From contig ADAC02000001.1 of the NCBI GenBank assembly GCA_000163555.2, forward strand, positions 806,001 through 870,000: a stretch of 64,000 bases of DNA. The letters run 5' to 3'. This document shows, piece by piece, positions 23,812 to 41,449 of this stretch. Made by a program: the position numbers and the translations under genes. Below the pieces are notes generated by a model. The model saw nothing but the letters and a program-made list of their open reading frames with translations. It was not told the DNA's origin and ran no database searches. The stretch comes from an alpha proteobacterium HIMB114. Its GTDB lineage: Bacteria; Pseudomonadota; Alphaproteobacteria; Pelagibacterales; Pelagibacteraceae. How positions within the stretch are numbered: position 1 is the stretch's first letter; every line of letters begins with the position of its first letter.

Positions 23812-24891
23812 CTATTCAAAATATATAAACTCGTAATCTCCAGTATATCCAGATATTTCATATAACCATAGCCATGATTGCTTGCCTATTAAAGTTTCAG
23901 CTGTTAAAGCCCAACATTGAACACCAAATTGTTCTGCCTCATTTCTAAAAGATTCAACGCAAATATATTTTTTTTTACCAATTCTTTCTATCTCTTTAAC
24001 AGCAGAGTATATGTCAGGGAGTTTGAAATTATGTAATGTTGTATTAGAAAAAATAAAATCAAAATACTTGTCCTTGAATTTAAATTTTTTTCTAGCATCA
24101 TGAAAAAAAATATTATTTTTCATTTCTTTTTTTGAATTTTTAATAGCATGTCTTGAAATATCACATCCATATACATTTTTACTTTTTAGTAGTCTTGATA
24201 TTTCATAAATTAAAAAACCCTTTCCACAGCCAATATCTAAAATCTTTGATTTTGAGGTTAATTTATAATCTTGGATTAATTTTTTGGCTAAAAAATTGTA
24301 ATATCCTTCTATATAGTAGTATCCTCCATATCCGTACTTTCTATCTCCGTCCCAATAATCTTTTTCAAATTTTTTTGATATCTTCATGCATTTAACTTTA
24401 TTATCCATAACACGTTCAATATAATTTCTTTTGGTTTTTTTGTGTCTGAAATTTACATAAAATTTCTCTTTTCCTAATTTTATTATTTTTTGAAATTTTT
24501 CTTTGTTTTGTTCTGAGAATATAATTTGCTTTAAATCAAAAATTTTTTCAACTTTTTGAAGATCAACCTTATTAAATATAGAAAGATTTTCTACTGCAAA
24601 ATGAATTGATTTTTTATTTTTTAATATTTTGTCGAAAAATTGTTTTCTTCTTTTTTTTAATAATGGCAACTGAAGTAAGCTGTAAAAAAGAACGCCATCA
24701 TATTTTTTTAAGTTATCTAAAATTTCGAATAATATATAATCACTATTTTCAAAAGAATACTCGGTAGAACTCATTAAAAAATTATAATTATTTTTTTTAC
24801 AGTAATCTCGATTCACTATATTTTGTATGTGTTGCGGTGCTCTCTCCCCAAAAAACGGCCTACTGAAGATGTAACCTTTAAGTGATTTCAC
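23812..24891 (-). CDS. Fusion: LIC12192-family sporadic carbohydrate cluster domain plus SAM methyltransferase
   Basis: A 359-residue two-domain protein. Residues about 1-130 resemble the standalone protein at 34680-35111 (shared GY-PF start, QNI-N-Y, LP-KR, IHF-E and K-EKIF positions) and fit the LIC12192 family described from scattered carbohydrate clusters. Residues about 160-359 are a class I methyltransferase with ILDIGCGKGFL as SAM motif I. This half matches the separate methyltransferase at 40790-41449, including DYWDGDRKYGYGGY. It abuts the 2OG-Fe(II) oxygenase gene upstream. The fusion implies that the two domains act on the same substrate; that substrate is unknown. Confidence 0.75.
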   Translation of the reverse strand: MKSLKGYIFSRPFFGERAPQHIQNIVNRDYCKKNNYNFLMSSTEYSFENSDYILFEILDNLKKYDGVLFYSLLQLPLLKKRRKQFFDKILKNKKSIHFAVENLSIFNKVDLQKVEKIFDLKQIIFSEQNKEKFQKIIKLGKEKFYVNFRHKKTKRNYIERVMDNKVKCMKISKKFEKDYWDGDRKYGYGGYYYIEGYYNFLAKKLIQDYKLTSKSKILDIGCGKGFLIYEISRLLKSKNVYGCDISRHAIKNSKKEMKNNIFFHDARKKFKFKDKYFDFIFSNTTLHNFKLPDIYSAVKEIERIGKKKYICVESFRNEAEQFGVQCWALTAETLIGKQSWLWLYEISGYTGDYEFIYFE

Positions 24892-25682
24892 TATTCAAAT
24901 GGATTTTTATATTTATTTCCTAAGTCTGTTATTGACCTCGAAGTTATTGGTACAAAAAATTCTCCAATTTTTTTATCACCATAAGGAGAGAATATAGATT
25001 TGAATCTACAATTCATTGAAACTCTTGTTTCGTTTTCTAAATTTATCACATTTCCGTGTGGCAATGTTTGATCAAACAATAAAAAATTATTTTTTTTGAT
25101 ATTAATCCATTCTAAATCTTTTTTTAAATATTTATATATTTCATCACTACTTATGTACTTTTTTTTTTTTCTTTTCATAAATTTTAAATTTTTCGTTGGA
25201 TTTAATATATACATAGATTTTGTTTTATAACAGTTAACTAATGGAACCCATAGATTAATCTCATAAGGAGAATCTCCTGACCATACATCTGAATGTATTG
25301 GTAGCAAAGACGAAGAGTCATGTGGGAACTGAATACTTAAATTGATATTTTTTTGCATCATTAACTCATTGCCTGCTAATTCATAAATTTTTTCTCGGGC
25401 CATATTAAAATAATGGAACTTAAAATCAGAATTTCTATTTATTTGATATATTAAGTTTAATCTAAATTCGTTTAAATCATTTACCTTAACTAATTTATGT
25501 AATTTATTTAAATCAGGATTTTTTATTTTCAAATTTTTTTTTATAACTTTTAGAATAAAATCATTTATATATTTGTAAGACTCACTTTTCGCTTTACAGA
25601 TTACATATCCCTTTTTTTTAAATTTATCGTTGATTGTTTTTTCGTTTTTTGTAAGAAAAGTTTTCATTAATTTAATATGCAA
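24891..25682 (-). CDS. Sporadic carbohydrate cluster 2OG-Fe(II) oxygenase (copy 1)
   Basis: A 263-residue protein with a probable non-haem iron site: HxD in LPIHSDVWSGD, a distal histidine in TLPHGNVI, and a downstream arginine in TRVSMNCRF that would bind 2-oxoglutarate. It matches the oxygenase type found beside LIC12192-family genes. Such enzymes hydroxylate or oxidise a substrate using O2 and 2-oxoglutarate. It is paralogous to 35095-35862, which has the same motif spacing. Its end touches the start of the LIC12192 fusion gene. The sugar or lipid substrate is unknown. Confidence 0.78.
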   Translation of the reverse strand: MHIKLMKTFLTKNEKTINDKFKKKGYVICKAKSESYKYINDFILKVIKKNLKIKNPDLNKLHKLVKVNDLNEFRLNLIYQINRNSDFKFHYFNMAREKIYELAGNELMMQKNINLSIQFPHDSSSLLPIHSDVWSGDSPYEINLWVPLVNCYKTKSMYILNPTKNLKFMKRKKKKYISSDEIYKYLKKDLEWINIKKNNFLLFDQTLPHGNVINLENETRVSMNCRFKSIFSPYGDKKIGEFFVPITSRSITDLGNKYKNPFE

Positions 25683-25730
25683 AAATATTAATTATTTCAT
25701 TGTATTTTAAATTTCTATTAATTCTTTTAT

Positions 25731-25736
25731 ATTATA
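25731..25736 (-). promoter_or_regulatory. Possible -10 element upstream of the oxygenase operon
   Basis: A perfect TATAAT lies in the 136-nt gap between the epimerase (25819-26808) and oxygenase genes, about 50 nt upstream of the oxygenase start on the same strand. No convincing -35 is seen, and the background is very AT-rich, so chance occurrence is likely enough to keep confidence low. Nothing else is recognisable in this gap. Confidence 0.25.
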
Positions 25737-25818
25737 ATCAATTTCAAATATAGGGTATTTATAGCGTTTTAAAAAATCTATTGTTTATCAGTAAACGAAA
25801 GTGTTTCATAAAAAAAAT

Positions 25819-26808
25819 TTATTTTAAAAACTTAAACCATACCTTAGTAGCTTTTGAAATTTTTGTTTTATTCCAAACAGGTGCATTTTTCCAATAATTA
25901 ATATTATCAAGTAGCATTTGAATGCCATTTGCAATTTTTATTGTCGGTTTCCAGTTCAATAATTTATATGCCTTAATAATATTTGCTCTAGATCTGTCAG
26001 GCTCTCCAGGTCTTTTGGGTAAATATATCTTGTTATTTTTGCTTATAAAATTAGCAATAAAATCTACTGTTGTTTCTTTTCCACTACCAATATTAATTAT
26101 ATCTCCACTCTTTTTATATTTTGAAGCTTTGTAAAAAGCTTTAGCTACATCACTAACGTAGATGAAATCACGAGTCTGCTTTCCATCACCAACAACCGTT
26201 AGTGGCTTATTATTTATTTTTTGAGCTAGAAATACACCAAATACCGCTCCATATGCCCCACTTGTTCTCGAACGTGTTCCATAAACATTAAATAATCTTA
26301 ATGATGTTACATTTAATTTATAAACTTTAGACCAATGTAATACCAAATCCTCACCCATTTTTTTTGTTAATGCGTAAGGATACTCAAGTTTAATTTTTGT
26401 ATTTTCATCAGTTGGAAATTTATCTGGTATACCGTAACATGAAGCTGAGGCCGCATAGACAAATTTTTTTATATTATTTTCTTGCGATGCTTTTAGAACA
26501 TTTAATGTTCCGTTAACATTTGTTTGAAAATATTCTTCTGGATGATTTATGCTGGGAACTATGTCAGCCAAAGCAGCTAGATGTATAACAACATCTATAT
26601 TTTTAAAAATACTTTCTAACCTCTTGCTATAATTTTGAATATTGCAATTTACAAATTTCAATTTTTTATTTTTTAATTGAATATTCTTTTTTCTTCCAGT
26701 GCACAAATTGTCAACAACCGTCACCGACTTTTTATTTTTTAATAATAAGTCTACAACATGACTGCCAATGAATCCTGCACCGCCGGTAACTAAATAATTT
26801 TTTGACAC
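25819..26808 (-). CDS. UDP-sugar 4-epimerase-like NAD-dependent epimerase
   Basis: A 329-residue extended SDR. It has VTGGAGFIGSH, DNLCTGRKKN, HLAALADIVPSI, an AASASCYG strand, catalytic YALTK, and the RLFNVYGTRSR and GDGKQTRDFIYV segments. The pattern is typical of UDP-glucose/UDP-GlcNAc 4-epimerases (GalE/WbpP group). It probably interconverts UDP-linked hexoses or hexosamines or their uronic acids for glycan assembly. It diverges from the plus-strand gene at 26841 across 32 nt. A C-terminal extension after the usual fold adds about 20 residues. Confidence 0.82.
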   Translation of the reverse strand: MSKNYLVTGGAGFIGSHVVDLLLKNKKSVTVVDNLCTGRKKNIQLKNKKLKFVNCNIQNYSKRLESIFKNIDVVIHLAALADIVPSINHPEEYFQTNVNGTLNVLKASQENNIKKFVYAASASCYGIPDKFPTDENTKIKLEYPYALTKKMGEDLVLHWSKVYKLNVTSLRLFNVYGTRSRTSGAYGAVFGVFLAQKINNKPLTVVGDGKQTRDFIYVSDVAKAFYKASKYKKSGDIINIGSGKETTVDFIANFISKNNKIYLPKRPGEPDRSRANIIKAYKLLNWKPTIKIANGIQMLLDNINYWKNAPVWNKTKISKATKVWFKFLK

Positions 26809-26840
26809 TTTTCAATCCTTAATATACAAAAAACACGAAA

Positions 26841-27998
26841 TTGAAATATTTAATTAATATATTTTTAAAAGAGGTAAAAGGTATATTTACACTTTTCATT
26901 CACCAAAATTATTATTTAATATTATTATACCCATTAAAGTTTTTTTTTAAGAAAAAAAAAATAAATCTTCAAAACAAAATATATATCTATGTTAATAACA
27001 ATAATTTCAGAGAAATTGATCTATATAATTTTCTAAAAAATAAATTTGAGATAGTTTTAATATATAAAAAAAAGCCAAAATACTCTTCTATTTTAGAAAA
27101 TCATGCAGCGATCATTGAGGAAAAAAATTTTTTTATAAGTCTTGTAAGTAATCCGTATAAAAAAATATTACATGTTTCTGAAACTTCAGAAATTTTTCCG
27201 TTTTTATTATTTGACAAAAATATAATATTTTCTATTTATGATATGGTAAAAGGTTATAATAAAGGGCTTTTAAGAGAATATTTTGAAAAAATTTCAGTCA
27301 AAAATATTAAATTTGCAATTTACAGAGATCCAAGAATTAAGAAAAATTTTAATAAATTTCATAAAAATATAAAATCTATATTAATACTAGAAGATACTTA
27401 TAATTTTAAAAAATCAAAAAAATTAAAAAAAATTCATGCAGTTTCTCTTGGATCTATAGATCAAAATATATGCTCTATCAAAAAAACAATTGATTTACTT
27501 TGCAAAAATAAAATTACAGTCCATATATTTTCTAATCAAAAAAATATCATTGAAAACATAAAATATCTAAAACATCAGAAGAAAAAATATAAAAAATTTC
27601 TTGTTATTGAAAAACCATTATACGGTCTAAAACTTTTAAAAAAAATATCCAAATATCATATTGGTATATCGCCACACGAAAACTATGATAATTTTAAAAA
27701 TTTAAATCATTTAAAGTGTTATTATGAAAATTGTGGTTCGGCAAGAATTGTCAGTTATTTATCGTCAAATCTAATTAACCTTTTATCAAAAAAGCTAAAG
27801 TTTCAAATATCAATGATAAAAGCCTATGGGGGAAAATTAATATATTACGAAGATTTTTTTAATGACCTTGATGATAATTTTAATTACAAAAAAAATATTT
27901 ATAATTTTAATAAGAATAATAATTTAAAAAAAAATTACTATAACTTCAATTTTAAATCAAAAAAAATTATAAATTTTTTAAATCAAATATCTAATTAA
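26841..27998 (+). CDS. Unrecognised protein, possibly a GT-B glycosyltransferase
   Basis: A 385-residue, Lys/Asn-rich protein that I do not recognise. A hydrophobic stretch near residues 18-35 may be membrane-associated. The middle and C-terminal part has a HAVSLGSIDQNICSIK strand-turn, VHIFSNQKN, GIKLLKK-like alternation and an ENCGSARIVSYLSSNLI segment that loosely resembles the donor domain of GT-B enzymes. It stands between a divergent epimerase gene and the split transketolase on the same strand (46-nt gap). The glycosyltransferase call is inference from fold-like patterns and context. Confidence 0.45.
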   Translation: MKYLINIFLKEVKGIFTLFIHQNYYLILLYPLKFFFKKKKINLQNKIYIYVNNNNFREIDLYNFLKNKFEIVLIYKKKPKYSSILENHAAIIEEKNFFISLVSNPYKKILHVSETSEIFPFLLFDKNIIFSIYDMVKGYNKGLLREYFEKISVKNIKFAIYRDPRIKKNFNKFHKNIKSILILEDTYNFKKSKKLKKIHAVSLGSIDQNICSIKKTIDLLCKNKITVHIFSNQKNIIENIKYLKHQKKKYKKFLVIEKPLYGLKLLKKISKYHIGISPHENYDNFKNLNHLKCYYENCGSARIVSYLSSNLINLLSKKLKFQISMIKAYGGKLIYYEDFFNDLDDNFNYKKNIYNFNKNNNLKKNYYNFNFKSKKIINFLNQISN

Positions 27999-28044: not shown

Positions 28045-28839
28045 ATGATACATTCTTTTAATAAAAAAATTTTCAGAACTTCAATGTCACTTCGGTTGAG
28101 AATATTAGAATTATCTCAAAAAGTAAGCGCACTTCACGTTGGCGGTTCGTTTTCAAGCGCTGAGATAATAACAACCATTTTTAAAAATTTAAAAAAACAT
28201 GATAAATTCATACTCTCCAAAGGCCATGTAGCAATTTTACTTTATTGCATTTTAGAAAAAAATGGTTTCATAAAAAAGAGTGATTTAAATCAATATTGTC
28301 AACCTAATGGGTCTTTAGGGGTTCATCCTGAAAGGTATTTGCCTGGTGTTGAAGCTTCTACAGGTTCACTTGGACACGGTTTAGGTTTAGCTTCTGGAAT
28401 GGCATTGTCCAAAAAGTTTAAAAATATTTTTGTATTAATGAGTGATGGTGAATTAATGGAAGGATCAGTTTGGGAAGCTGTTTTGACCATATCATCGCTA
28501 AAATTAAATAACATTATTTTGATTATTGACAATAATGATTTACAAAGTGCCACTAGGGCAACTGATACTCATCCAACTTTGTACCCCATAGATAAAAAGT
28601 TTCGTACTTTTGGTTGGGAGTCTATGAAATGCAATGGTCATAATCCCTTTGAAATTAATAAAATGATTAAATTGAAGAAGAAAAATAAACCATTATGCAT
28701 TGTGTCTCAAACTACCAAAGGATACCCGATATCTTTTATGCGTGACAAACCAATATGGCATTATAGATCACCAAATAAGAAAGAATACGAACTATCAATT
28801 AAAGAAATAAAAAAACTGATGAAAAAATATGAGAAATAA
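28045..28839 (+). CDS. Transketolase, N-terminal (TPP-binding) subunit
   Basis: A 264-residue polypeptide equal to the N-terminal third of transketolase. It has SKGHVAILLY, the GSLGHGLGLASGMA loop and the TPP/Mg motif SDGELMEGSVWEA followed by DNNDLQ. With the next gene it should form a two-subunit transketolase that moves two-carbon ketol units between sugar phosphates, using thiamine diphosphate. The two genes overlap by 11 nt. Split transketolases are common in secondary and glycan clusters; here it could make sedoheptulose 7-phosphate for the GmhA-type isomerases. Confidence 0.9.
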   Translation: MIHSFNKKIFRTSMSLRLRILELSQKVSALHVGGSFSSAEIITTIFKNLKKHDKFILSKGHVAILLYCILEKNGFIKKSDLNQYCQPNGSLGVHPERYLPGVEASTGSLGHGLGLASGMALSKKFKNIFVLMSDGELMEGSVWEAVLTISSLKLNNIILIIDNNDLQSATRATDTHPTLYPIDKKFRTFGWESMKCNGHNPFEINKMIKLKKKNKPLCIVSQTTKGYPISFMRDKPIWHYRSPNKKEYELSIKEIKKLMKKYEK

Positions 28840-29728
28840 ATTTGCAAAAACTATTTTTGAAGAAATAAAAAAAAATAATAAGATTTTTGTAGTTGCTGCA
28901 GATATCTCTCCTTCTGGGGATATGGCAAAATATCAAAAATATGCAAAAAATTTTATTAATGTTGGCGTGGCAGAACAAAGCATGATTAGCATGTGTGCTG
29001 GATTAGCTATGAGCGGAATGAAACCTTTTGCGTATACTATAGCTACATTTGCTGTTTTTAGACCTTTTGAAATGATTAGAGATGACATTTGTTATCAAAA
29101 TCTTCCTGTTACAATTATTGGTATGGGATCAGGGACAACATATGCAAACTTGGGTGGTACACATACTGCTACTGAAGATATTGCTGTATTAAGATCACTA
29201 CCAAATATGCAAATACTTTCTCCTTGCGACCCAGAGGAGCTTGAAGAATGCATAAGATATTGTGCAAGAAAAAGTAAATTCCCTACATATATAAGAATTG
29301 GAAAAACTGGGGAAAGCACATTTACAAAAAAAATTAAAAAAAAATGGCTATTTGGCAAAATTAGACAAATTAAAAACGGAAATAAAACTTGTATACTTAC
29401 TCACGGGCCAATTATGAACTTAGCAATAGAGGCGTCAAAAAAAATAAAAAAAAAAATATCAATATATTCATGTCATACACTTAAGCCTTTTGATAACGTA
29501 GGCTTAAAAAAAATTTTTAATAAGTATGAAAGAATAGTAGTTTTAGAAGATCATTCTATAATAGGTGGGTTGAGTGATATTGTTAAAAATAAAGCCTATG
29601 ATTTTAAGTACAAAAAAAAAATTACAACTTTTTCTTTAAAAGACCAGTTCATTCATGAATTTAGTTCACAGACAAACTTACAAAATAAACATGGGATAAA
29701 CTTAAAAAAGATACTTGATGAAATTTAA
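28829..29728 (+). CDS. Transketolase, C-terminal (pyrimidine-binding) subunit
   Basis: A 299-residue partner of the previous gene. It holds the Pyr domain, with GVAEQSMISMCAGLAMSG carrying the glutamate that activates the TPP aminopyrimidine ring, the FAVFRPFEMIRDD segment, and a C-terminal transketolase domain ending near ILDEI. The 11-nt overlap with the upstream subunit suggests coupled translation and a heteromeric enzyme. The 3' end is 4 nt from a convergent epimerase gene, leaving no room for a separate terminator. Confidence 0.9.
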   Translation: MRNKFAKTIFEEIKKNNKIFVVAADISPSGDMAKYQKYAKNFINVGVAEQSMISMCAGLAMSGMKPFAYTIATFAVFRPFEMIRDDICYQNLPVTIIGMGSGTTYANLGGTHTATEDIAVLRSLPNMQILSPCDPEELEECIRYCARKSKFPTYIRIGKTGESTFTKKIKKKWLFGKIRQIKNGNKTCILTHGPIMNLAIEASKKIKKKISIYSCHTLKPFDNVGLKKIFNKYERIVVLEDHSIIGGLSDIVKNKAYDFKYKKKITTFSLKDQFIHEFSSQTNLQNKHGINLKKILDEI

Positions 29729-29732
29729 TTTA

Positions 29733-30722
29733 TTATTTTAAATGTAATGACATCATTTTTTTTACATTAAAGAAATTATCATTATCAAAAGTATTAATAA
29801 GTTTTTTATTAATAAATGCTTCTAATAAATCCCTGATGCCTTGTGATACATCATATTGGGTTTTGAAATTTAACTCGTTTAAAATCTTATTAGATGAAGT
29901 GTGGTAAGATCTATTATCATCTGAATGAACTTTTTTTATTGTAACGTCGCTACCTATGATTTTTTTTACCTCTAATGCTATTTCATTAACTGTTTTATTT
30001 TCAGCTCCTACGTTGTAAATTTTACCATTAATTTTACTAACATCTAAATCTACAAATAACTCATAGGCTCTTACCATATCATTTATATGAATATTTGGCC
30101 TCAATTGCTCGCCCCCAAAGACCGATATTTCTCTCTTATGAAAAGCTAAATTTGTTAGAATATTAACAACTAAATCTAATCGTTGTCTTGGTGAATATCC
30201 ATGAACAGTAGAAGGTCTTAATACCACAGTACAAAAATTGTCCGAGGTATATTTAGATAATATTTTCTCACAATCTGCTTTAAATCTCGAATAATCAGTT
30301 AATGGCTCCAGCGGCATCTCTTCTGTAACATTTTTCATTTTTTTTATGCCATAAACTGATGATGATGATGCATATATAAATTTCTTAATATTATTTTTAA
30401 TTGAACTTTCAACTAGCGGTGCAAAAGAATCCAGATTAATTTTTTTTCCTAATTCAGGATCTAATTCAAAACTTGGATCATTAGATATGCATGCCAAATG
30501 GATCACAGTATCATGACCTTCTAAAGATTTATTTAGAAGATTAAAATCTCTAATGTCGCCTCTTATTATATTTAATTTTTTGTGTTTTTGTAATGTTTGT
30601 CCAAATATCATAAGATCATAGGAAGTTACTTGATGCCCTTTATCTAAAAGTTTTGGAATTAAAACCGAACCAACATAACCCGCTCCACCAGTGATAAATA
30701 TTTTTTTAGATTTCTGTTTCAT
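29733..30722 (-). CDS. NAD-dependent epimerase/dehydratase
   Basis: A 329-residue extended SDR with ITGGAGYVGSVL, HLACISNDPSFELD, YASSSSVYG, catalytic YSRFK, RPSTVHGYSPRQRLD and RPNIHINDMV. It belongs to the same branch as the epimerase at 17125-18063, whose closest well-studied relatives act on GDP- or UDP-sugars. Reaction and substrate are not determined. The start overlaps the TIGR04372-type gene stop by 1 nt, so the two probably form an operon. Confidence 0.8.
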   Translation of the reverse strand: MKQKSKKIFITGGAGYVGSVLIPKLLDKGHQVTSYDLMIFGQTLQKHKKLNIIRGDIRDFNLLNKSLEGHDTVIHLACISNDPSFELDPELGKKINLDSFAPLVESSIKNNIKKFIYASSSSVYGIKKMKNVTEEMPLEPLTDYSRFKADCEKILSKYTSDNFCTVVLRPSTVHGYSPRQRLDLVVNILTNLAFHKREISVFGGEQLRPNIHINDMVRAYELFVDLDVSKINGKIYNVGAENKTVNEIALEVKKIIGSDVTIKKVHSDDNRSYHTSSNKILNELNFKTQYDVSQGIRDLLEAFINKKLINTFDNDNFFNVKKMMSLHLK

Positions 30723-32070: not shown

Positions 32071-33762
32071 ATGTCAATTGATCAATCAGATTTTGAGTCT
32101 GAGCATAATAAAAGGTTCCACCTTAAAGGAAAAAGCGCTCTAGAGATAAAAAAGGGCAAAAAAAATATTTTATTGATTGGACCACAAACAGAACTTGCCT
32201 CTGCGGAAAGATCTTTTATGGCACCAGCTCTTGGAGTAATCAGATTAGCTGGTTACCTAAATAAAAAAGGACATTACGCGGAATCATTTGAACCAAATCT
32301 TTCAATGCTGACTGGAAAACCACCATTTCTTGAAGAAGTACTTAAAAAGAAAAAGTGGGATATTATTGGTTTTTCAGTCTTAGAGGAAACATTTATATTT
32401 GATATTGAAAATATGCAGTTGGCAGAAAAAATTTGTCCAGAAGCAATTTTTATAGCTGGAGGTATTGAGGCTCAATTTAACTATCAAAATGTATTAGATA
32501 AAACTCCATGTAAGTTTGTAATAATATCAGAAGGAGAAAAAAGTTTACTAGCTCTGGCAGATGGCAAACCTATAAATGAGATACCTGGAATAGTATTTAA
32601 AAATAGTTCAGTTCCATTAGATCAACATACCTTTGATTTTGCTACATCTGCAATAGACTGGGAAGAATTGCCTTATGAGGAATATTGGGATTATTATGTT
32701 AATAAATATGGAGATAAAATTACAGAGCAAAATTTAGACGAAATTCATACGGTTAGAGTTTTCTCAAGAAATAGATGTCCTATAGGATGTAAGTTTTGTA
32801 GCTCAACAAACCAAATCACATGGGGATCTGAACAAAAAGTTCCTGTTATAAGTGCATCCGAAGAAACTTTAATTCATAACATTAAAAGAATTTGCAATGC
32901 CCACCCAAGAACAAGAACAATATATCTAACAGATGATGATTTTTGCATCAATAAAAGATCAGTTATTAGATTTTGTGAAAAAGTTATAAAAGAGAAAGAG
33001 AAAAATGACTTACCAAAACATTTAACTTTTATGTCGTTTTGTAGAGCGAGCGATGCCAGTGTAGAAATGTTTGAATGGATGAAAAAAGCTGGGTTTAGAA
33101 GACTAAATATTGGGATAGAAAGTTTTTCAACAAAAGTTTTACACGAAATGAACAAAAAATGTACAGCTGAAGAAAACCATGAATGTATGAAAATTGCAAA
33201 ACAAACTGGCGTTGGTCCATATGCAAATATAATAGTTACAACTCCAGAAAGTACTTTGGAAGATGTAGAGAAAACAGTTAATGAGGCATATCAATATACC
33301 TTGGACCCATTTTTTCACTTGGGTGTTACTATGGGAATAAAACCTCTTAAGGGGACAGACTATTACGAAACATTTAGTGACTTTAGAACTAGGATAGTTC
33401 CTATTAAAAATACTCAATACCACTTAAAATATGATGATCTAATCTATGCTAAGGACCCTAGAGTAAAACATCTTCAAATCAGATACTGGAATGAAATTGA
33501 TGATTATATGAATGAAGAAATTCAAAAGAATGATATTAGACATGGAAATGCTCGTAACTTATCACAATTAAAATTAATCTTTTTAAAAAAACTCGTTAAA
33601 GAAATAAAAGAAAACAAACTAGAAATATTAAGTAATTTCAAAGATGATTTAAATAAATCAGATCCATACAACGAAAGACAAACTGTAGATGTTGGAACTG
33701 ATGTAGAATATAATCCAAAAAAAACTAAAAAAAATAAATCTAAGTGGGGAAGCTGGTCCTAA
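32071..33762 (+). CDS. Radical SAM protein with B12-binding-like N-terminal domain
   Basis: A 563-residue protein. Residues about 25-190 form a Rossmann-like region (LLIGPQTELASAERS, APALGVIRLAGYL, FIAGGIEAQ) as in cobalamin-binding radical-SAM enzymes, but no canonical DxHxxG is seen. The [4Fe-4S] cysteines are C236, C240 and C243 in RCPIGCKFCSS. TIM-barrel features follow (LTDDDFC, RRLNIGIESFS). The C-terminus is a Lys-rich tail. Its codon content looks less AT-extreme than its neighbours, suggesting a distinct history. The substrate is unknown. It is alone on the plus strand between minus-strand genes. Confidence 0.82.
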   Translation: MSIDQSDFESEHNKRFHLKGKSALEIKKGKKNILLIGPQTELASAERSFMAPALGVIRLAGYLNKKGHYAESFEPNLSMLTGKPPFLEEVLKKKKWDIIGFSVLEETFIFDIENMQLAEKICPEAIFIAGGIEAQFNYQNVLDKTPCKFVIISEGEKSLLALADGKPINEIPGIVFKNSSVPLDQHTFDFATSAIDWEELPYEEYWDYYVNKYGDKITEQNLDEIHTVRVFSRNRCPIGCKFCSSTNQITWGSEQKVPVISASEETLIHNIKRICNAHPRTRTIYLTDDDFCINKRSVIRFCEKVIKEKEKNDLPKHLTFMSFCRASDASVEMFEWMKKAGFRRLNIGIESFSTKVLHEMNKKCTAEENHECMKIAKQTGVGPYANIIVTTPESTLEDVEKTVNEAYQYTLDPFFHLGVTMGIKPLKGTDYYETFSDFRTRIVPIKNTQYHLKYDDLIYAKDPRVKHLQIRYWNEIDDYMNEEIQKNDIRHGNARNLSQLKLIFLKKLVKEIKENKLEILSNFKDDLNKSDPYNERQTVDVGTDVEYNPKKTKKNKSKWGSWS

Positions 33763-33800: not shown

Positions 33801-34670
33801 TTAGATACTATTAATATTCTCACTTATGAAGCGGTGAACAGCCTGCTTCGTTGTATAAAGTGAAAAATTTTTTTTCAAATTTTTATTCAAATTAATACTA
33901 AAGCCTCCATTTTTTTTATTAATTCTAATTTTTTTTTTGATCCGTAACCTTTCAAACATTAGTTCAAAAATATTTTGAAACCTCATAGGATTTTTACAGC
34001 CTAGATTATAAATTTTAAATTTAATTTTTTGCTCTAATGACTGTTTAACAATTTCTGCAAGATTTCTAACATGTACAATATTATTGTATTTTAAATTGGG
34101 ATTATTAATTGTTATTTCTTTGTTCTCTTTAATAATACTTAGGGCATTCGATAAGAAATTATGCTGACTTTTAAAACCTAATAATCCAGGTAATCGAAAA
34201 ATTACTGCCTCCGCACCATTTTTAATACAATAATCCTTTAATTCTTTTTCCATTTTAATTTTAGATAACCCATAAGCATCTGGTTTATTAAAACTTTCAT
34301 TTTCAGTAATTTTTTTTTTAGTTATTTTGCCATACACGGACATAGTTGATAATAAGATAATTTTCTTACAATTGTTTTTTTTTGCTAATTTCAAAAGTTT
34401 CTTAAAACCAAGATAATTTACTTTATTGAAAAGATGTTTTTTAATTCCTTTTTCTGGAACTATGGACGCACAATGAACAAGTGCATCAAATTTTTTTTTC
34501 ATATTAATTTTTTTTGTGATGTCAATTTTCACAACTTTTATATTTTTATCTTTCACAAAATTTATTGGTCTATTTTTATTAAACGAAGCAATTACTTTAT
34601 ATTTTTTTGCTAAAAATTTAGAAATTGTATTTCCAACTAAAGTTCCTGACCCGGTAATTAAAATTATCAT
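33801..34670 (-). CDS. NAD-dependent epimerase/reductase
   Basis: A 289-residue SDR with an ITGSGTLVGNTI nucleotide-binding loop (slightly off the usual TGGxGxxG), VHCASIVPEKG, LLSTMSVYG and catalytic YGLSK. Later segments VHVRNLAEIV and IYNLGCKNP are standard for the extended SDR family. It lies 9 nt downstream of the LIC12192-family gene and two genes downstream of the oxygenase gene, so it probably serves the same sugar modification. The reaction is unknown. Confidence 0.77.
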   Translation of the reverse strand: MIILITGSGTLVGNTISKFLAKKYKVIASFNKNRPINFVKDKNIKVVKIDITKKINMKKKFDALVHCASIVPEKGIKKHLFNKVNYLGFKKLLKLAKKNNCKKIILLSTMSVYGKITKKKITENESFNKPDAYGLSKIKMEKELKDYCIKNGAEAVIFRLPGLLGFKSQHNFLSNALSIIKENKEITINNPNLKYNNIVHVRNLAEIVKQSLEQKIKFKIYNLGCKNPMRFQNIFELMFERLRIKKKIRINKKNGGFSINLNKNLKKNFSLYTTKQAVHRFISENINSI

Positions 34671-34679: not shown

Positions 34680-35111
34680 TTATTTTTTTAATCTTTTAAA
34701 AATTTTATCAGATTGTTCGGTAAATTTTTGGTATGAGAAAAGCTCTTCTATTTTTTTTATGTCTTTTTTTTCTTTAAATATTATATCTTCAATTACAAAA
34801 TGAATTTCTTTATGTTTTTTAATTGCAAGCTTAAAAATTTCGTTCCTCTTAGATCTTGTTTTTGGGAGCATGTAGAAAGATAACATTACTAATCCTCTTG
34901 AGATTGTTTTGTCATTAATCATGCTTCTTAATTGTAAGTGATTTTTTGAAAAGATTGGCTCTCCTTGACCAGGGCCATAAATCAAATTTTTTTTATATGC
35001 ATAGTTAGCATTAATTATATTTTGAAATTTAACTGGCAAAGAATATGGACCAAATGGCTTATTATGACAGTATCCAGCTAATGCTTTAATTTTTTTATTT
35101 TGCAAAGTCAT
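34680..35111 (-). CDS. LIC12192-family sporadic carbohydrate cluster protein (standalone)
   Basis: A 143-residue protein that aligns with the N-terminal domain of the fusion at 23812-24891. Shared positions include GYCHNKPFG against GYIFSRPFFG, FQNIINANY against IQNIVNRDY, LPKTRSKRNEIF against LPLLKKRRKQFF, and IHFVIED against IHFAVEN. No catalytic motif is known to me. It overlaps the oxygenase gene upstream by 17 nt, repeating the gene order seen around 24.9 kb. The family name is from memory and the function is undetermined. Confidence 0.72.
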   Translation of the reverse strand: MTLQNKKIKALAGYCHNKPFGPYSLPVKFQNIINANYAYKKNLIYGPGQGEPIFSKNHLQLRSMINDKTISRGLVMLSFYMLPKTRSKRNEIFKLAIKKHKEIHFVIEDIIFKEKKDIKKIEELFSYQKFTEQSDKIFKRLKK

Positions 35112-35862
35112 TAAATGGATAATGTAAATTAAAAGAAGTAATCAATTTTTTGTTTACTGTTTTATAAAAATTTTCTATGTTTTTTAAATTACCTACATTT
35201 TTCACATATGGGCTATATAAATTTTTGAATCTAAGATTTATAGAAATTCGAGTAGTCATTTCTTGATTAACAACGTTTCCATGTAAACAATTTGGAGAAA
35301 AAAATATTGCTTCTCCAAAATTTAAATTTAACCACTTCATTTTTTTTTTATATCTTTTGTTAGCATCATGAATTTTGTAATTTTTATTATTTTTCATTTT
35401 TTTTAAGATATCAATTGAATTTTTCGGGTTTATTATAAACATAGATTTTGTTTTTTTTACATTTACAAACGGTATCCACAAATTAACTTGAAAAACAGAG
35501 TCACTCTGAGAACTATCGGAATGAAGTGTTAATAATGATGTACCATCGTTAGGATATTGAATCGATAATGATATGTAGCTTTGGACATTTTCAGAGCCCA
35601 CTAATTCACTGATCTCGTTTTCAAATATTTCATAAATTTTATTGTTGAATTTTTTATCTTTGTTAATTTTATTATATAAGTAAAGCCTTAATTGATTTAG
35701 TTTATTTACAGGGTAAACTTTATGTAATTCATTTAGGTCAACTTTTTTTAATTTTGTTTTTGTCTTAATTAATTTTATTATTGTAGATCTTAAAAAATCT
35801 GCATCCTTTTTTTTATATCTTATCTTTTCATAGCCATATTTTATAAAGTTTTTATGATTCAT
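35095..35862 (-). CDS. Sporadic carbohydrate cluster 2OG-Fe(II) oxygenase (copy 2)
   Basis: A 255-residue paralogue of 24891-25682. The iron ligands are H and D in LTLHSDSSQSD and the distal H in NCLHGNVV; the arginine in TRISINLRF would bind 2-oxoglutarate. The segment QVNLWIPFVNVKKTKSMFIINP matches copy 1 closely. It leads a minus-strand unit with the LIC12192-family and epimerase genes. The promoter should be in the 57-nt gap up to the PQQ dehydrogenase gene, unless it is co-transcribed from further upstream. Confidence 0.78.
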   Translation of the reverse strand: MNHKNFIKYGYEKIRYKKKDADFLRSTIIKLIKTKTKLKKVDLNELHKVYPVNKLNQLRLYLYNKINKDKKFNNKIYEIFENEISELVGSENVQSYISLSIQYPNDGTSLLTLHSDSSQSDSVFQVNLWIPFVNVKKTKSMFIINPKNSIDILKKMKNNKNYKIHDANKRYKKKMKWLNLNFGEAIFFSPNCLHGNVVNQEMTTRISINLRFKNLYSPYVKNVGNLKNIENFYKTVNKKLITSFNLHYPFNDFAK

Positions 35863-35919: not shown

Positions 35920-38268
35920 TTATTCTAGCGAGAAGGTATATAAAGTTGAGCCTCTTTTTTTAAAATTAATAGCTCCGCCTCCGGTGGATAGGAAGCTTAT
36001 ATATTGTTTATTATCCAATGAGTAAATAATTGGTGGAGCTGTACCACTTGCCTCCATATCAAAAGTCCATAAAATATTACCTGTAAACTTATCTATAGCA
36101 TAAGATTTATTATCCTCTGTTCCAGTATAAAAAAGTACACCACCTGAATTTAATGCAACCCCACCAAAACTCACAGTTCCTACCAGCTTATTTCCTATAT
36201 ATCCAACTGGTTTTTTCCATGCTATTTTTCCAGAAACTAAGTTTAGCTTTGTAAGATATCCCCATGGAGGATTAGATGCTGGCAGCATATCATCTGTTAA
36301 AAACTCAAACCAATCGTAATTACTAACTTGAATTAAGTTTTCTTCAAAAATAGATTGATCCCAATCTCTAAAAAGCTGTACAACCCTAGTATAATTTTTT
36401 TCGTTAATTTTTAAATTTGGATGTTTTGTTTTAAAATTTTTAAAATTTAATCTTCGTTCGTTATTCTTATTTAAAGTTAAACCAACTAAACTAGGAATAT
36501 ACTTATATACTATGTCTAAATTAACATTGTATTCACCGTTACGTTTATTTCCATGACAACTTGAACAATTAGAGTTGTAAATTTCTAATTCTGCAGTTTT
36601 TTCTTTTTCTACCAAAACTTTATTCTCTGTTGAAAACATGTACATTCGCATCGCATAAGGCGTGTTAATTGTTGGTATGTAAAGATCTTGATTTACAGGA
36701 TCTAGTGCAGCTCCCATCCATTCTGCTCCTCCATGAATACCATAATATATTAAAGATTTTCCAAAACTTGGTGGCTTGAACCATCCATACTCTGAGTCCT
36801 CTAGCTTATTTAAGATTTCACTTTGTTTTTTTTTTGATAATTTATCAATATCTTTTTTACTATATTCTATTTTTGAAATCTGCTCTGGTTTTGGAAATAC
36901 TTTTTGATAAGGACTCGTATATTCTCCTTTAATTTTAGATTTAGGTGCTTTTTTATAAATATAATCATAAATATTTTTTCCATTTAGCCTATCTAAAATA
37001 ATTGTATTGCCTCGTTTTGTTATCGAAATTACTACTTTATGTACCTTATCTCCAATACGTAAATCATGTAAAATTGGAGGACTTGGTATATCGAAATTCC
37101 AAAGATCATGTGCAGTTTCTTGAAAGCTCCATAGTATTTTTTCTTCATCAATACTGATTGCTACAATACTATTAGAGTTTTTATTATCACCTGGTCTATG
37201 AACACCATAATTAGTTGGTAAAGGATTTCCTGTATTCAAGTATACGATGCCAAGGTTATCATCTATTGCCACCCCTCCCCATGGTGTACCGCCTCCAAAA
37301 TTTTTATTTTTTGGGTGCAAATTAACTTCTTTTATTAATTCTCCACTAAATTTATCGTAAATTTTTAATCCTGGACTTGCTCCAACATTTGCGAAGGCAA
37401 TTTTATTTTTATAAATCATCGGTGCAGTTATACTTGTTGCTGACCAAACATATCCCCGTCCAGAATTAAAATTTTTTTCTAAGTTGCCATTTTGTACATT
37501 TATTTTAAATACCTTCTTGCCGATAGGCACAAATATATAATTTCCTCTTTTTTCTTTAGATAATGTTATTCCCCTTCTACTTGGAGGAAACAAACATTCT
37601 TTATCCCATAAAACTTTTCCTGTTTTTGCATCTAGTGCATATAATTTCCAATCAGATGAAATATAAAATATTTTTTTATCTAAAAATACGGGATTGACTT
37701 CGATATTCTGCTTCCATTTTTTTTTGATTTCATCTGGATGAATTGTCTTGTGTTTCCAAGCTAATTTTAATTTATGAGCATTATCAATGTTAACAAAATT
37801 GTTGTTTGCGAAATGATTGTTCCAGTTTCCTCCGTGAGATCTTAACCAGCTATTATATTCTATATTTTTTTCAAGATTAATACTTTTATTATTTAATAGT
37901 TTGTCAGTAATACGATAAATTCCATATTCTGTAGTTTTTGAAATATTTTTATATGGATTTTTTAATTCCTCATTTAGTTTATTTAAAGAATCTATTCTCG
38001 TTTGATTTTTTTTAAATTTCTTATCAATATTTAGTAAAAAATTATAAAAGTAAGAATTTTTTTTAATAGTATATTTAAATCTATCTACAAGTGTGCTGCC
38101 ATAATAAAAACAAGGAACTATATGTCTAATTCCAAAGTCATTAATTGCAAAAAATATTTTATAAGTCTTGCAGTGTCGATTGAAACCTATTGTATAATAA
38201 GTCAATAAAAATAACAAAATGACTAAAGAAATAAAAATTTTAAGAGGTAATTTTATTTTTTTTGACAT
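35920..38268 (-). CDS. PQQ-dependent quinoprotein dehydrogenase with haem c motif
   Basis: A 782-residue membrane-anchored beta-propeller enzyme. One N-terminal helix (about residues 8-28) tethers it to the inner membrane facing the periplasm. Propeller repeats carry W-docking motifs such as LYALDAKTGKVLWD and AIDKFTGNILWTF. A CSSCH haem-c motif lies near residue 570, and the C-terminal GTAPPIIYSLDNKQYISFLSTGGG region resembles glucose-dehydrogenase-type quinoproteins. It would oxidise an alcohol or aldose and pass electrons to the quinone pool or a cytochrome. PQQ biosynthesis genes are not in the window. It is unusual inside a glycan island. Confidence 0.87.
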   Translation of the reverse strand: MSKKIKLPLKIFISLVILLFLLTYYTIGFNRHCKTYKIFFAINDFGIRHIVPCFYYGSTLVDRFKYTIKKNSYFYNFLLNIDKKFKKNQTRIDSLNKLNEELKNPYKNISKTTEYGIYRITDKLLNNKSINLEKNIEYNSWLRSHGGNWNNHFANNNFVNIDNAHKLKLAWKHKTIHPDEIKKKWKQNIEVNPVFLDKKIFYISSDWKLYALDAKTGKVLWDKECLFPPSRRGITLSKEKRGNYIFVPIGKKVFKINVQNGNLEKNFNSGRGYVWSATSITAPMIYKNKIAFANVGASPGLKIYDKFSGELIKEVNLHPKNKNFGGGTPWGGVAIDDNLGIVYLNTGNPLPTNYGVHRPGDNKNSNSIVAISIDEEKILWSFQETAHDLWNFDIPSPPILHDLRIGDKVHKVVISITKRGNTIILDRLNGKNIYDYIYKKAPKSKIKGEYTSPYQKVFPKPEQISKIEYSKKDIDKLSKKKQSEILNKLEDSEYGWFKPPSFGKSLIYYGIHGGAEWMGAALDPVNQDLYIPTINTPYAMRMYMFSTENKVLVEKEKTAELEIYNSNCSSCHGNKRNGEYNVNLDIVYKYIPSLVGLTLNKNNERRLNFKNFKTKHPNLKINEKNYTRVVQLFRDWDQSIFEENLIQVSNYDWFEFLTDDMLPASNPPWGYLTKLNLVSGKIAWKKPVGYIGNKLVGTVSFGGVALNSGGVLFYTGTEDNKSYAIDKFTGNILWTFDMEASGTAPPIIYSLDNKQYISFLSTGGGAINFKKRGSTLYTFSLE

Positions 38269-38317
38269 AACATTTATATTGATATCAATTCATTTTTTAA
38301 ATTTACTATTTACTCTG

Positions 38318-39352
38318 CTAATTTAAGAAAACTTTTATAGTTCTTAAAAATTCTTTCTCATTGCAAAATTGTTTATTACAAATAAATTGTCCATGTATAC
38401 CTGCATAAATATTTCCAACAAAATTAGTTAAAAATGGATCATTATAAAATTTATTAAATACCGAAGTAATGGCAAAAAAAGCATCTCCACACCCAACTGG
38501 ATCTAAAATATTTTTATTAATAGCTGGAAAATGAAATTCTTTTTTATCACTTATTATAGTACTTCCTGCATTTCCAAGTGTAATTGCAAAATTTGATTTT
38601 AACTTTGAACTTGCCTCATTAATTTTTTTGTTAAAATTTTTTTGACCTCTGAAACTAAACTCAAACTCTTTCTTATTGAAAGTAATGAAATTAAACTTTT
38701 CATATTTATCATAATAGTTTGTTACATAATTTAATGAATTTAAATGGCAATTCAGAGAATAGGGGGTTTTACAAACATTAATTTCTTCAATAACATTTTT
38801 GGTTAACAAACCAAATCCAAAGTCAATAACTAACATTAAATCGGATTTATTTTTGATAATCAAATTTATTAGTAACTTTTCCTTTTTTTTTGGCAGTTTT
38901 ATATTTTCAAGGTTATATAGTTGAAGTAATTTAACCATACTTCTATTGTTATCTACGAATCTCTCTATTTTTGGCATCATACTTAAGGTAAAAGGCGTCA
39001 AAAGATTAATTTTTTTACTAATTTTAATTTTTGTATTTATTTCTCTAAAAATTAATAAATCCACATCAAAACCAAGATTGCTTAACATTTCTGCTACAGC
39101 AATAGAGCCACCTTTATAATACTCAATGTTATTTTCTAAAAATGCAATACTTGGTGACTTGGATGAGGTTCCGACGGTCCCACCATATCTATAAACATCA
39201 ATAATAGGGTCTCCAATTACTAAAATTTTTTTTTTTTTAATATTTTTGTAAATTTTTAAAAATTTTGAAAATGAATATTTTTTTTTTAAGAGATTTATTT
39301 TTTTTTTTAAATCAACATCTAAATTTTGATTTTTTAAAAACCTGTCGTTCAT
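38318..39352 (-). CDS. PfkB-family sugar kinase, HldA-like
   Basis: A 344-residue ribokinase-fold enzyme with VIGDPIIDVYRYG, EYYKGGSIAVAEML (the glycine pair of the sugar site) and the catalytic loop DPVGCGDAFFAI, where the usual GAGD reads GCGD. It resembles the kinase half of HldE, which phosphorylates D-glycero-D-manno-heptose 7-phosphate at C1. It has no nucleotidyltransferase half, unlike the fusion at 15598-17121. It is divergent from the flavoprotein gene at 39417 (64-nt gap). Heptose specificity is inferred from context. Confidence 0.8.
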   Translation of the reverse strand: MNDRFLKNQNLDVDLKKKINLLKKKYSFSKFLKIYKNIKKKKILVIGDPIIDVYRYGGTVGTSSKSPSIAFLENNIEYYKGGSIAVAEMLSNLGFDVDLLIFREINTKIKISKKINLLTPFTLSMMPKIERFVDNNRSMVKLLQLYNLENIKLPKKKEKLLINLIIKNKSDLMLVIDFGFGLLTKNVIEEINVCKTPYSLNCHLNSLNYVTNYYDKYEKFNFITFNKKEFEFSFRGQKNFNKKINEASSKLKSNFAITLGNAGSTIISDKKEFHFPAINKNILDPVGCGDAFFAITSVFNKFYNDPFLTNFVGNIYAGIHGQFICNKQFCNEKEFLRTIKVFLN

Positions 39353-39416
39353 TAATTTCTTGATTTATTAAGATTATATAATTAGTTATATCAATATATA
39401 CATTTATTATCAATCT

Positions 39417-40586
39417 ATGAAAAAAAAAGTTTTAATCATTGGAGGTGGTTTTGGAGGTTGTGCCTCTGCACATATATTATCTAAAAATAAAAGTTTAGAT
39501 GTTACTCTAGTTGAAAAAAATAAGTATTTAGGTGCTGGTGTCAGAACTTTATTTTATGGCGGACACCCTTACACTTTTGGGCCAAGACATTTTTTAACTC
39601 ATAATAAAAAAATTTTTGATTATCTTAACAAACATGTTCCAATGAGAAAATGTTCAGAACATCAATTTATTACTTACGTTGAACGAGATAATAAATTTTA
39701 TAATTACCCGTTACATGAGAATGATATAAAACAAATGCCTGATAAGAATATAATTAAGCGCGAATTAAAGAAAAAAAAATTATTTAAAATAAAAAGTTCA
39801 AAAAATTTAGAGGAATATTGGATAAATTCTTTTGGCAAAACTTTATATTCAAAAACCATAGATCTTTACAATAAAAAAATGTGGATGGTCGATGATAATA
39901 AAAAAATTGATACATTCAATTGGTCTCCGAAAGGGGCTACAATAAAACAAGGTCCCAGAGCAGCATGGGATAAGGCAATATCAGCATACCCAATCAAAAA
40001 AAATGGTTATAACGATTTTTTTGATAAAGTTTTTAAAACTAAAACAAAAGTAATTTTAAATGCTAAACTAAGCGTTTCAAACCTTAAAGCAAAAAAATTT
40101 AAAATAAATGGCAAGTCTCACAAATTTGATATTGTGATCTCCACTATCTCTCCTGATTTTTTTCATAACTATAAACTTGGTGAATTGGGTTTTATAGGAA
40201 GAGATTTCCATAAAATTGTATTTCCAACTGAGCATGTTTTTCCAAAAAATATTTATTTTTTATATTATGCGAATGATGAAAAATTTACTCGTTTAGTCGA
40301 ATACAAAAAATTTACAAAACACAAATCAAAAACAAGTTTAATTGGTATAGAATTTCCATCTAAAAATGGAAAATATTACCCTTTGCCCTTTAAAAAAGAG
40401 ATTAAAAAAGCTCAAAAATATCTTAAGGCTTTTCCATCTTGGTATTTTTCTATTGGTCGGGCTGGGACGTATAGATATGAAGTAGACATCGATGACTCAA
40501 TTGAACAAGCTTTGGAAATAGAAAACATAATTAAAAATAATAAATATAAAAATGCAATGCCTATTGAAAAATGGTGGAAATTATAA
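39417..40586 (+). CDS. FAD-dependent UDP-galactopyranose-mutase-like protein
   Basis: A 389-residue flavoprotein. The N-terminal dinucleotide-binding motif is VLIIGGGFGGCASA, followed by VEKNKYLGAGVRT. It then has GGHPYTFGPRHFLTHN, YNYPLHENDI and a KMWMVDD region as in UDP-galactopyranose mutase (Glf). Glf contracts UDP-galactopyranose to the furanose form using reduced FAD. The match is partial, so a related ring-contraction or sugar-oxidation role is possible. It opens a plus-strand unit with the Trm112-like, methyltransferase and NeuD-like genes. Confidence 0.72.
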   Translation: MKKKVLIIGGGFGGCASAHILSKNKSLDVTLVEKNKYLGAGVRTLFYGGHPYTFGPRHFLTHNKKIFDYLNKHVPMRKCSEHQFITYVERDNKFYNYPLHENDIKQMPDKNIIKRELKKKKLFKIKSSKNLEEYWINSFGKTLYSKTIDLYNKKMWMVDDNKKIDTFNWSPKGATIKQGPRAAWDKAISAYPIKKNGYNDFFDKVFKTKTKVILNAKLSVSNLKAKKFKINGKSHKFDIVISTISPDFFHNYKLGELGFIGRDFHKIVFPTEHVFPKNIYFLYYANDEKFTRLVEYKKFTKHKSKTSLIGIEFPSKNGKYYPLPFKKEIKKAQKYLKAFPSWYFSIGRAGTYRYEVDIDDSIEQALEIENIIKNNKYKNAMPIEKWWKL

Positions 40587-40587
40587 A

Positions 40588-40800
40588 ATGAATAAAATAT
40601 TTAAATGTCCTGAGTGTTCATATAAAGATAAAAAAAATAAATTAATAAAAAAAAATAAATTTTTTATTTGCAATAACTGCAAAACATTTTACCCACTATA
40701 CAAAGGTCTTCCTGTCTTATTAACCAGAGAGGATGATTTTTATCATTTACGAAAAGCTTTATCGCCTGCTAAATATAGAGTTTTTAAATATGAAGATTAA
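40588..40800 (+). CDS. Trm112-like zinc-ribbon protein
   Basis: A 70-residue protein from ATG 40588, immediately after the flavoprotein stop; the longer frame from 40552 overlaps that gene. Two cysteine pairs, CPEC and CNNC, flank a short loop, and the segment YPLYKGLPVLL is the typical end of Trm112/YcaR-like proteins. Trm112 proteins bind and activate methyltransferases in eukaryotes and archaea. Here the 3' end overlaps a methyltransferase gene by 11 nt, which supports a partner role. That role is inference. Confidence 0.78.
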   Translation: MNKIFKCPECSYKDKKNKLIKKNKFFICNNCKTFYPLYKGLPVLLTREDDFYHLRKALSPAKYRVFKYED

Positions 40801-41449
40801 TTTATTAAAATCCTTACCAAAAACTTGGAAAAAAAAACCTCTTAAAATAAGACACAGTGCATCTATAGAAGATAGAATTTTATCATGGAGATTGGACAAA
40901 GAATATTTTGATGGAAATAGAAAACAAGGTTATGCTGGTTATAAATATGATGGAAGATGGAGACCTGTTGCTCAAGATTTTATTGAACATTATAAGTTAA
41001 AAGATAATGCTAAAATTCTAGATATTGGTTGTGCTAAAAGTTATCTGTTAGATGAGTTTGGAAAATTGTTAAAAAAACCAACTCTATGTGGATTAGATAT
41101 TTCTCATTATGCAATCACAAAAAGTAATAAAAGAATAAAAAAAAATCTATGTATTGGAAATGCAACCAAACTGCCGTTTGAAAAAAATTATTTTGATTTG
41201 GTAATATCAATAAACTCACTGCATAATATAATGACTTTGGACGAATTAAAAAAGTCATTTAAAGAAATAAAGAGAGTCTCTAAGAAAAATACTTTTATAT
41301 CTTTAGGAGCTTATACAAATAAAAAAGACCAAAATATTCTTGATAATTGGGCTGTAGTCGCAACAACTTATATGAGCGTAAATTCATGGTTAAACTTTTT
41401 TAAACATGTTAATTACAGAGGGGATTATTGGTGGTTCAAACCGAATTAA
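40790..41449 (+). CDS. SAM-dependent methyltransferase
   Basis: A 219-residue class I methyltransferase from ATG 40790. SAM motif I is ILDIGCAKSYLLDEF, with GLDISHYAI and the post-motif GNATKLPFEKNYFDLV. It closely matches the C-terminal half of 23812-24891, including EYFDGNRKQGYAGY before motif I and NYRGDYWWF at the end. The start overlaps the Trm112-like gene by 11 nt and the stop overlaps the NeuD-like gene. The substrate is unknown; a glycan or nucleotide sugar is likely. Confidence 0.82.
   Translation: MKINLLKSLPKTWKKKPLKIRHSASIEDRILSWRLDKEYFDGNRKQGYAGYKYDGRWRPVAQDFIEHYKLKDNAKILDIGCAKSYLLDEFGKLLKKPTLCGLDISHYAITKSNKRIKKNLCIGNATKLPFEKNYFDLVISINSLHNIMTLDELKKSFKEIKRVSKKNTFISLGAYTNKKDQNILDNWAVVATTYMSVNSWLNFFKHVNYRGDYWWFKPN

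Follow-up and report, generated by a model that had tools for sequence, protein, structure and literature searches.

We analyzed a 64,000-nucleotide window of the alpha proteobacterium HIMB114 (Pelagibacteraceae; contig ADAC02000001.1, positions 806,001 to 870,000), in which a gene for an Fe(II)- and 2-oxoglutarate (2OG)-dependent oxygenase is followed, at two places, by a gene or domain of the LIC12192 family. It was found that the association of the two families is far beyond chance, and the modelled fold suggested that LIC12192 is a repurposed recombinase domain, which does not have to catalyse a reaction itself. With moderate confidence, we read the two copies as two versions of a cassette for a modified surface sugar, in which a thiamine diphosphate (ThDP) enzyme would introduce a branch, a methyltransferase would O-methylate, and the oxygenase, for which LIC12192 would be an obligate but non-catalytic subunit, would oxidise. 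The core genes are as follows; protein families from the clustering of neighbouring genes are numbered c3, c4 and so on.

24891..25682, minus strand: copy 1 2OG-Fe(II) oxygenase, TIGR04324 (351 bits; PhyH-type fold model)
24523..24891, minus strand: copy 1 LIC12192 domain, TIGR04323, forming the N-terminal portion of the fused protein (126 bits; residues 4-123 of the 23812-24891 open reading frame, ORF)
23812..24483, minus strand: class I S-adenosylmethionine (SAM) methyltransferase domain of family c3, forming the C-terminal portion of the fused protein (Methyltransf_11/25/31)
35095..35862, minus strand: copy 2 2OG-Fe(II) oxygenase, TIGR04324, divergent subtype (314 bits; nearest G089/L136)
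34680..35111, minus strand: copy 2 LIC12192 protein, TIGR04323 (152 bits; 17 bp overlap with the oxygenase; nearest L136)
40733..41449, plus strand: free-standing c3 methyltransferase, most likely the copy 2 partner (clade with the c3 of L136)

Pairing of the oxygenase with LIC12192

Both window oxygenases exceeded the curated TIGR04324 cut-off (150 bits), and both small proteins exceeded that of TIGR04323, the LIC12192 family (55 bits). These scores confirmed the initial annotation, which had recorded an oxygenase gene and then a LIC12192 gene twice. The relatedness of the two small domains was likewise borne out, since both belong to TIGR04323 and align with each other at 28% identity (E=7e-13). 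For comparison, loci were drawn from named genomes (80), relatives (about 25) and IMG/VR (1). Roughly half of those from named genomes were Bradyrhizobium-like and were collapsed to one for counts. The genome scan pattern was one peptide typical of standard members, so that rare subtypes were under-sampled.

Wherever a locus extended far enough to show it, LIC12192 lay immediately 3' of the oxygenase on the same strand. It started no more than 40 bp from the stop codon of the oxygenase in 70 of 72 measurable genes (median -4 bp), and the genes usually overlapped by 4-8 bp. The remaining two genes, with gaps of 121 and 41 bp, come from divergent members, and in both the profile had truncated the start; the sole unmeasured LIC12192 gene begins at a contig end. 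The tree-distance matrices of the two families were correlated at r=0.87 over 67 pairs, a value that 0 of 2000 permutations reached. Moreover, LIC12192-like proteins below the threshold were paired with matching divergent oxygenases, and these pairs (L045, L127, L131, L139, L140 and L142) clustered together in both trees. An unnamed LIC12192 sister subfamily was observed under the TIGR04323 cut-off, each member beside a TIGR04324 oxygenase (L127:697-1876, L131:4163-5372, L139:9271-10445, L140:1370-2538, L045:4083-5304 and L142:3537-5029). A distant TIGR04324-like oxygenase without LIC12192 was present at L143:7549-8412 (66 bits), adjoining an aldo-keto reductase-like gene; among the loci collected, LIC12192 was never seen in the absence of an oxygenase. 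Because only the former arrangement occurred and never the converse, LIC12192 appears to depend on the oxygenase, and not vice versa.

The NCBIfam names of TIGR04323 and TIGR04324, which refer to a 'sporadic carbohydrate cluster', already imply the pairing, and both window pairs exceed the cut-offs. The association is therefore not a discovery, a point missing from the initial annotation. The NCBIfam names, in contrast, carry no function, fold, ThDP or methyltransferase context or fusion, and the divergent pairs reported here lie under the TIGR04323 cut-off. A literature search on 'sporadic carbohydrate cluster' and 'LIC12192' was empty, and no published function for the pair was found; on transketolases in O-antigen loci the literature searched likewise yielded nothing useful. 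As far as these tools show, four points are new here: the recombinase fold, the fusion, the divergent pairs under the cut-off, and a strict operon logic that includes a methyltransferase and a ThDP enzyme.

Fold of LIC12192 and its possible role

The copy 1 LIC12192 domain was modelled with AlphaFold2 (AF2) from an alignment with 49 family members, giving a predicted local distance difference test (pLDDT) of 89.6 and a predicted template modelling score (pTM) of 0.82. Strands and helices alternate in the model, and a long helix stands at its end. In a Foldseek search against the PDB, the top six matches were serine integrases or resolvases with template modelling (TM) scores of up to 0.74. The best was 9dxd (E=2.8e-5, TM 0.74), followed by others including 3bvp, Bxb1, 3guv and 3g13; the gamma-delta resolvase 2gm5 gave a target-side TM of 0.80, and LacI-type sugar-binding and other Rossmann-like folds ranked below the recombinases. 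When viral models were searched by fold, the named matches at E<=0.001 were only serine recombinases, integrases and poxvirus OPG061, which we take to be F16. Independently, the TIGR04323 profile caught a true serine recombinase in one genome, G276 (E=3.5e-4, calculated on this genome alone).

The catalytic features of recombinases were missing. The Y-x-R-x-S serine motif was present in 0 of 73 LIC12192 proteins and in 21 of 21 recombinases, and a Pfam scan gave no PF00239 match in the 49 LIC12192 members; no PF00239 recombinase was found in the genome. The C-terminal DNA-binding domain is absent, the LIC12192 proteins stopping at about 130 amino acids (aa). In Bradyrhizobium, the 'SR' of LIC12192 has Ala in place of Ser, and the Arg is retained. 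A PDB sequence search with LIC12192 gave no relative, its one match (E=0.09) being due to chance, and the poxvirus F16 profile gave three weak matches among the 49 members (best E 0.07), which are suggestive only. Since the sequence-profile kinship was not significant alone, the kinship with recombinases rests on the fold. Judged from the model, shared descent of LIC12192 and the serine recombinases is likely, not proven. A published description treats poxvirus F16 as a serine recombinase that seems to have lost its activity (PMC4304020); LIC12192 resembles it in having a serine-recombinase fold without the catalysis, and OPG061 models were among the best viral fold matches. F16 is, however, a viral nucleolar protein, whereas LIC12192 is encoded in bacterial sugar operons.

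In the oxygenase, the HxD...H iron triad and the 2OG-binding Arg (H130, D132, H209 and R220) were invariant in 48 relatives and in both window copies. The AF2 model of the copy 1 oxygenase (pLDDT 92.9, pTM 0.90) resembled the PhyH-type enzymes CurA Hal, GriE, PtlH, SnoN, SyrB2, ThoJ and AviO1 at a TM of about 0.5, and a PDB sequence search gave no relative. Because the iron-ligand Asp is retained, the enzyme is predicted to be of the hydroxylase type, and a halogenase was rejected.

A non-catalytic partner of such an oxygenase has a precedent in TlxI, a subunit that raises the kcat/Km of the 2OG oxygenase TlxJ from 0.02 to 1.63 min-1 uM-1; a pair of this type is naturally fused in TalA (PMC12141560). 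In both systems a 2OG oxygenase would be accompanied by a catalytically incompetent protein. TlxI has the 2OG fold, whereas the recombinase-like fold of LIC12192 is unrelated to its oxygenase, and the fusion observed here is to a methyltransferase. Based on the pairing, the co-divergence, the lost recombinase catalysis and this precedent, we infer a subunit role for LIC12192. As a bolder reading, which we put forward tentatively, a serine-recombinase catalytic domain may have been recruited as a subunit that a 2OG oxygenase of sugar biosynthesis requires. LIC12192 would then represent a new class of two-component bacterial oxygenase in a ThDP/oxygenase/methyltransferase cassette for an undescribed branched surface sugar.

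The two copies and the wider cassette

The two window oxygenases share 40% identity over 212 aa, and no third TIGR04323 match was found in the genome beyond the two copies. Copy 2 grouped with genome G089 (locus L136) in the LIC12192 and oxygenase trees alike. L136, from this other SAR11-family genome, is a compact cluster of the copy 2 type, c3-LIC12192-oxygenase-c45 beside c7-c4-c9-c55-c6, and the window contains the families of this cluster in a partly rearranged form (33801, 34680-35862, 38318, 39417, 40733 and 28045-29728). By sequence comparison, copies 1 and 2 are two old separate subtypes, each with its own methyltransferase. A recent tandem duplication was rejected because of the 28-40% identity and the different nearest relatives; the earlier term 'duplicated' is therefore misleading.

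The class I SAM methyltransferase motif I (LDxGCGKG) was present, together with a Pfam match, and the fused methyltransferase is complete. It grouped with the c3 that directly follows LIC12192 in L131 (support 95/92), and the fusion junction ...KIIKLGKEKFYVNFRHKKTKRNY resembles the start of the free c3 proteins, MGKLINIVSKLHQSTNRDY in L135. These two observations suggested that the fusion arose by end-to-end joining of operon neighbours. As had been proposed, it joins parts that are separate elsewhere, occurring in 1 of 109 LIC12192 ORFs; being seen in one genome, the apparent fusion may also stem from a sequencing error that removed a stop. The free methyltransferase is the nearest relative of the fused one within the window (39% identity over 185 aa), as first noted, although its longest ORF starts at 40733 and not at 40790. 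It formed a clade with the c3 of L136 (86/64) inside a six-row clade (100/99), and on this sequence evidence it is most likely the methyltransferase partner of copy 2.

Neighbour clustering revealed a recurring order: haloacid dehalogenase (HAD)-like protein (c14), aminoglycoside phosphotransferase (APH)-type kinase (c8), transketolase N-terminal subunit (c4), transketolase C-terminal subunit (c9), oxygenase, LIC12192 and c3. An HldE-like nucleotidyltransferase-kinase (c6), a GmhA-like isomerase (c18) and short-chain dehydrogenases/reductases (SDRs; c5 and c7) lie nearby. The cassette was counted over 37 loci, dereplicated and flanked by 6 kb or more on each side, of which 35 contained c3, 32 the transketolase C subunit, 31 the N subunit and 31 the HldE-like c6. 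Directly after LIC12192 stood c3 in 38 of 57 loci, and the gene directly upstream of the oxygenase was the transketolase C subunit in 39 of 58; the N subunit family was upstream of the oxygenase-LIC12192 pair in most loci. In L132, the order is oxygenase, LIC12192, c3 and c10. In cyanobacteria, the HAD-like domain and the APH-type kinase form one protein (L056:5349-6968); elsewhere they are encoded by separate neighbouring genes, which makes this a further fusion of adjacent members of the cassette.

Among 293 genomes of relatives, all 23 with TIGR04323 over the cut-off carry c3, which is present in 28 overall (hypergeometric P ~1e-29, kinship ignored). In the five with c3 and no LIC12192, an E1-alpha/E1-beta ThDP pair (PF00676 plus transketolase domains) follows c3 in three. 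Such a pair also occurs near oxygenase-LIC12192 in L121, L133, L137 and L138. Because either a transketolase or an E1 pair accompanies c3, a ThDP enzyme forming C-C bonds together with c3 appears to be the most general theme. The E1 pair was seen beside or near c3 in L121, L133, L137, L138, L180, L181 and L182, and it replaces the transketolase in several SAR11-family genomes. The cassette is spread over Pseudomonadota (SAR11, Azospirillum, Bradyrhizobium), Cyanobacteriota, Bdellovibrionota and others, and the Pelagibacteraceae genome L097 is one named record with the same cassette. One locus filed as viral, L120 (IMGVR_UViG_3300027357_000030), carries a near-identical Bradyrhizobium cassette and is probably a misfiled bacterial contig.

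Taken with the initial annotation, its observation was confirmed and its interpretation partly supported. The three families do form one conserved functional unit, with c3 in all 23 relatives' genomes that have TIGR04323 over the cut-off and LIC12192 directly behind the oxygenase, and it is natural to read this unit as oxidising and methylating in the course of sugar biosynthesis. The unit is larger than three parts: the initial annotation had missed the C-methyltransferase-like neighbour, the ThDP pair (28045-29728) and the genes of heptose type. Nor are the modules mixed and matched; their order is fixed as oxygenase, LIC12192, methyltransferase. The further genes of the window are listed below.

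22657..23808, minus strand: C-methyltransferase-like gene, next in the copy 1 operon (PF08484 E=1e-5; same position in L132)
25819..26808, minus strand: SDR epimerase/dehydratase beside copy 1, c5 (PF01370 E=1e-60; c5 in 38/69 loci)
28045..28839, plus strand: split transketolase N-terminal (ThDP-binding) subunit, c4 (PF00456 E=8e-29)
28829..29728, plus strand: split transketolase C-terminal subunit, c9 (PF02779 and PF02780)
29733..30722, minus strand: SDR epimerase, c7 (in 46/69 loci)
33801..34670, minus strand: SDR epimerase/reductase after copy 2, c45 (PF01370; also adjoins oxygenase-LIC12192 in L121 and L136)
38318..39352, minus strand: PfkB-type sugar kinase related to the HldE kinase domain, c6, without the nucleotidyltransferase part (TIGR02198 70 bits)
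39417..40586, plus strand: UDP-galactopyranose-mutase-like flavoprotein, c55, belonging to the cluster type of copy 2 (PF03275 E=5e-28)
15598..17121, minus strand: HldE-like nucleotidyltransferase-kinase, c6 (HldE model 159 bits, under the equivalog cut-off)
5366..5932, minus strand: GmhA-like SIS-domain isomerase, c18 (PF13580 E=9e-21)

The two subunits at 28045-29728 are the only ThDP pair in the window for the two copies. Together they hold the complete transketolase domain set (PF00456, PF02779 and PF02780), and the N subunit scored under the NCBIfam transketolase equivalog cut-offs for all models among the matches listed. The c55 flavoprotein is 72% identical to its counterpart in G089 and 71% identical to that in G108, where the oxygenase neighbourhood is masked by runs of N. 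Between copy 2 and the sugar kinase, a PQQ (pyrroloquinoline quinone)-dependent dehydrogenase-like protein with a cytochrome-like C-terminal stretch is encoded at 35920-38268. A B12-binding radical SAM protein lies in the sugar island at 32071-33762, where C-methylation or ring chemistry is possible, and an AdoCbl-II riboswitch (42134-42225) precedes a TonB-type receptor gene (42317-44188). A 23S gene at 44744-47494 flanks one end of the island; no 5S match was found within the window, and the 5S gene may lie outside. In the available passages of PMC2217521, hypervariable region HVR2 of SAR11 is likewise an AT-rich island of sugar genes beside a single 23S gene. Those passages, in contrast, name no such cassette, and the 5S end is unseen within the window.

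Proposed pathway and alternative explanations

In the proposed pathway, the HldE/GmhA-like and SDR genes would supply an activated keto-sugar or sugar phosphate, to which the ThDP enzyme (the split transketolase here, an E1-type enzyme elsewhere) would add a two-carbon unit. The c3 methyltransferase would O-methylate the branched product, and the oxygenase would oxidise it, by hydroxylation or by forming a ring or bridge at the new methoxy group; methylation may precede oxidation, or these two steps may be reversed. LIC12192, which would derive from a serine recombinase catalytic domain after loss of the serine motif and the DNA-binding part, probably holds or positions the sugar substrate. 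Alternatively, the transketolase may make a ketose phosphate that feeds the heptose-type genes. Complex formation, reaction order, substrate and surface location are all inferred. The two-carbon step was suggested by analogy with AviB1/AviB2 (avilamycin; proposed) and YerE (yersiniose), which form two-carbon sugar branches (PMC4753412). These octose-type pathways likewise place a ThDP enzyme among SDRs and methyltransferases, and some loci here have an E1-type pair. Most loci here, in contrast, use a split transketolase and add the 2OG oxygenase, LIC12192 and HldE/GmhA-like activation.

Several results weigh against this proposal. The profile-profile alignment of LIC12192 with recombinases was weak (hhalign probability 0.4%), and 5 of 37 loci had no ThDP pair within the DNA covered. 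The strict adjacency and co-divergence would equally fit two enzymes of consecutive steps. In addition, LIC12192 has near-invariant polar residues across phyla (R11, Q20, Q23, N24, E44, S71 and E101); Q23, E44 and E101 are invariant and R11 is nearly always present, which may indicate a new active site.

The last two points also favour the main rival to the subunit role, namely that LIC12192 is itself an enzyme. It would act on the oxygenase product, for example as a sugar isomerase, lyase or hydrolase, through a new active site within its recombinase-like fold. The separate gene with its own start, and a window fusion that joins the methyltransferase and not the oxygenase, are consistent with it. 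We nevertheless consider it unlikely. The subtypes lose much of the polar set, copy 2 having NK for SR and GEP for TEY, and the most divergent pairs have no SR at all. The strict bond, moreover, is with the oxygenase and not with the methyltransferase, c3 being the next gene in only 38 of 57 loci.

It is less probable still that the methyltransferase acts first and the oxygenase then closes a methylenedioxy-type bridge at the methoxy group, as in the orthosomycins, with no hydroxylation of a sugar carbon. The cassette nearly always includes a methyltransferase, ThDP two-carbon branching would be common to it and to avilamycin, and AviO1, from avilamycin biosynthesis, is among the enzymes that the oxygenase model resembles. 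EvdMO1, a fused methyltransferase-oxygenase, would be a precedent. AviO1, however, is only one among many similar PhyH-type matches, the step order is fixed by nothing, and five genomes have c3 but not the oxygenase. Finally, the recombinase fold, sporadic distribution and hypervariable region would fit a regulatory or DNA-binding remnant of a recombinase that once moved the cassette, which is very improbable for a protein that lacks the DNA-binding domain and the serine motif and is kept in an operon across phyla with a divergence matched to that of the oxygenase.

Under the subunit proposal, an orphan protein family present in several phyla acquires a role that can be tested. If it is true, LIC12192 would be another DNA-recombinase fold reused in metabolism. 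The cassette points to an undescribed oxidised and methylated surface sugar in ocean and root-associated bacteria, whose surface glycans likely matter for phage attack and symbiosis.

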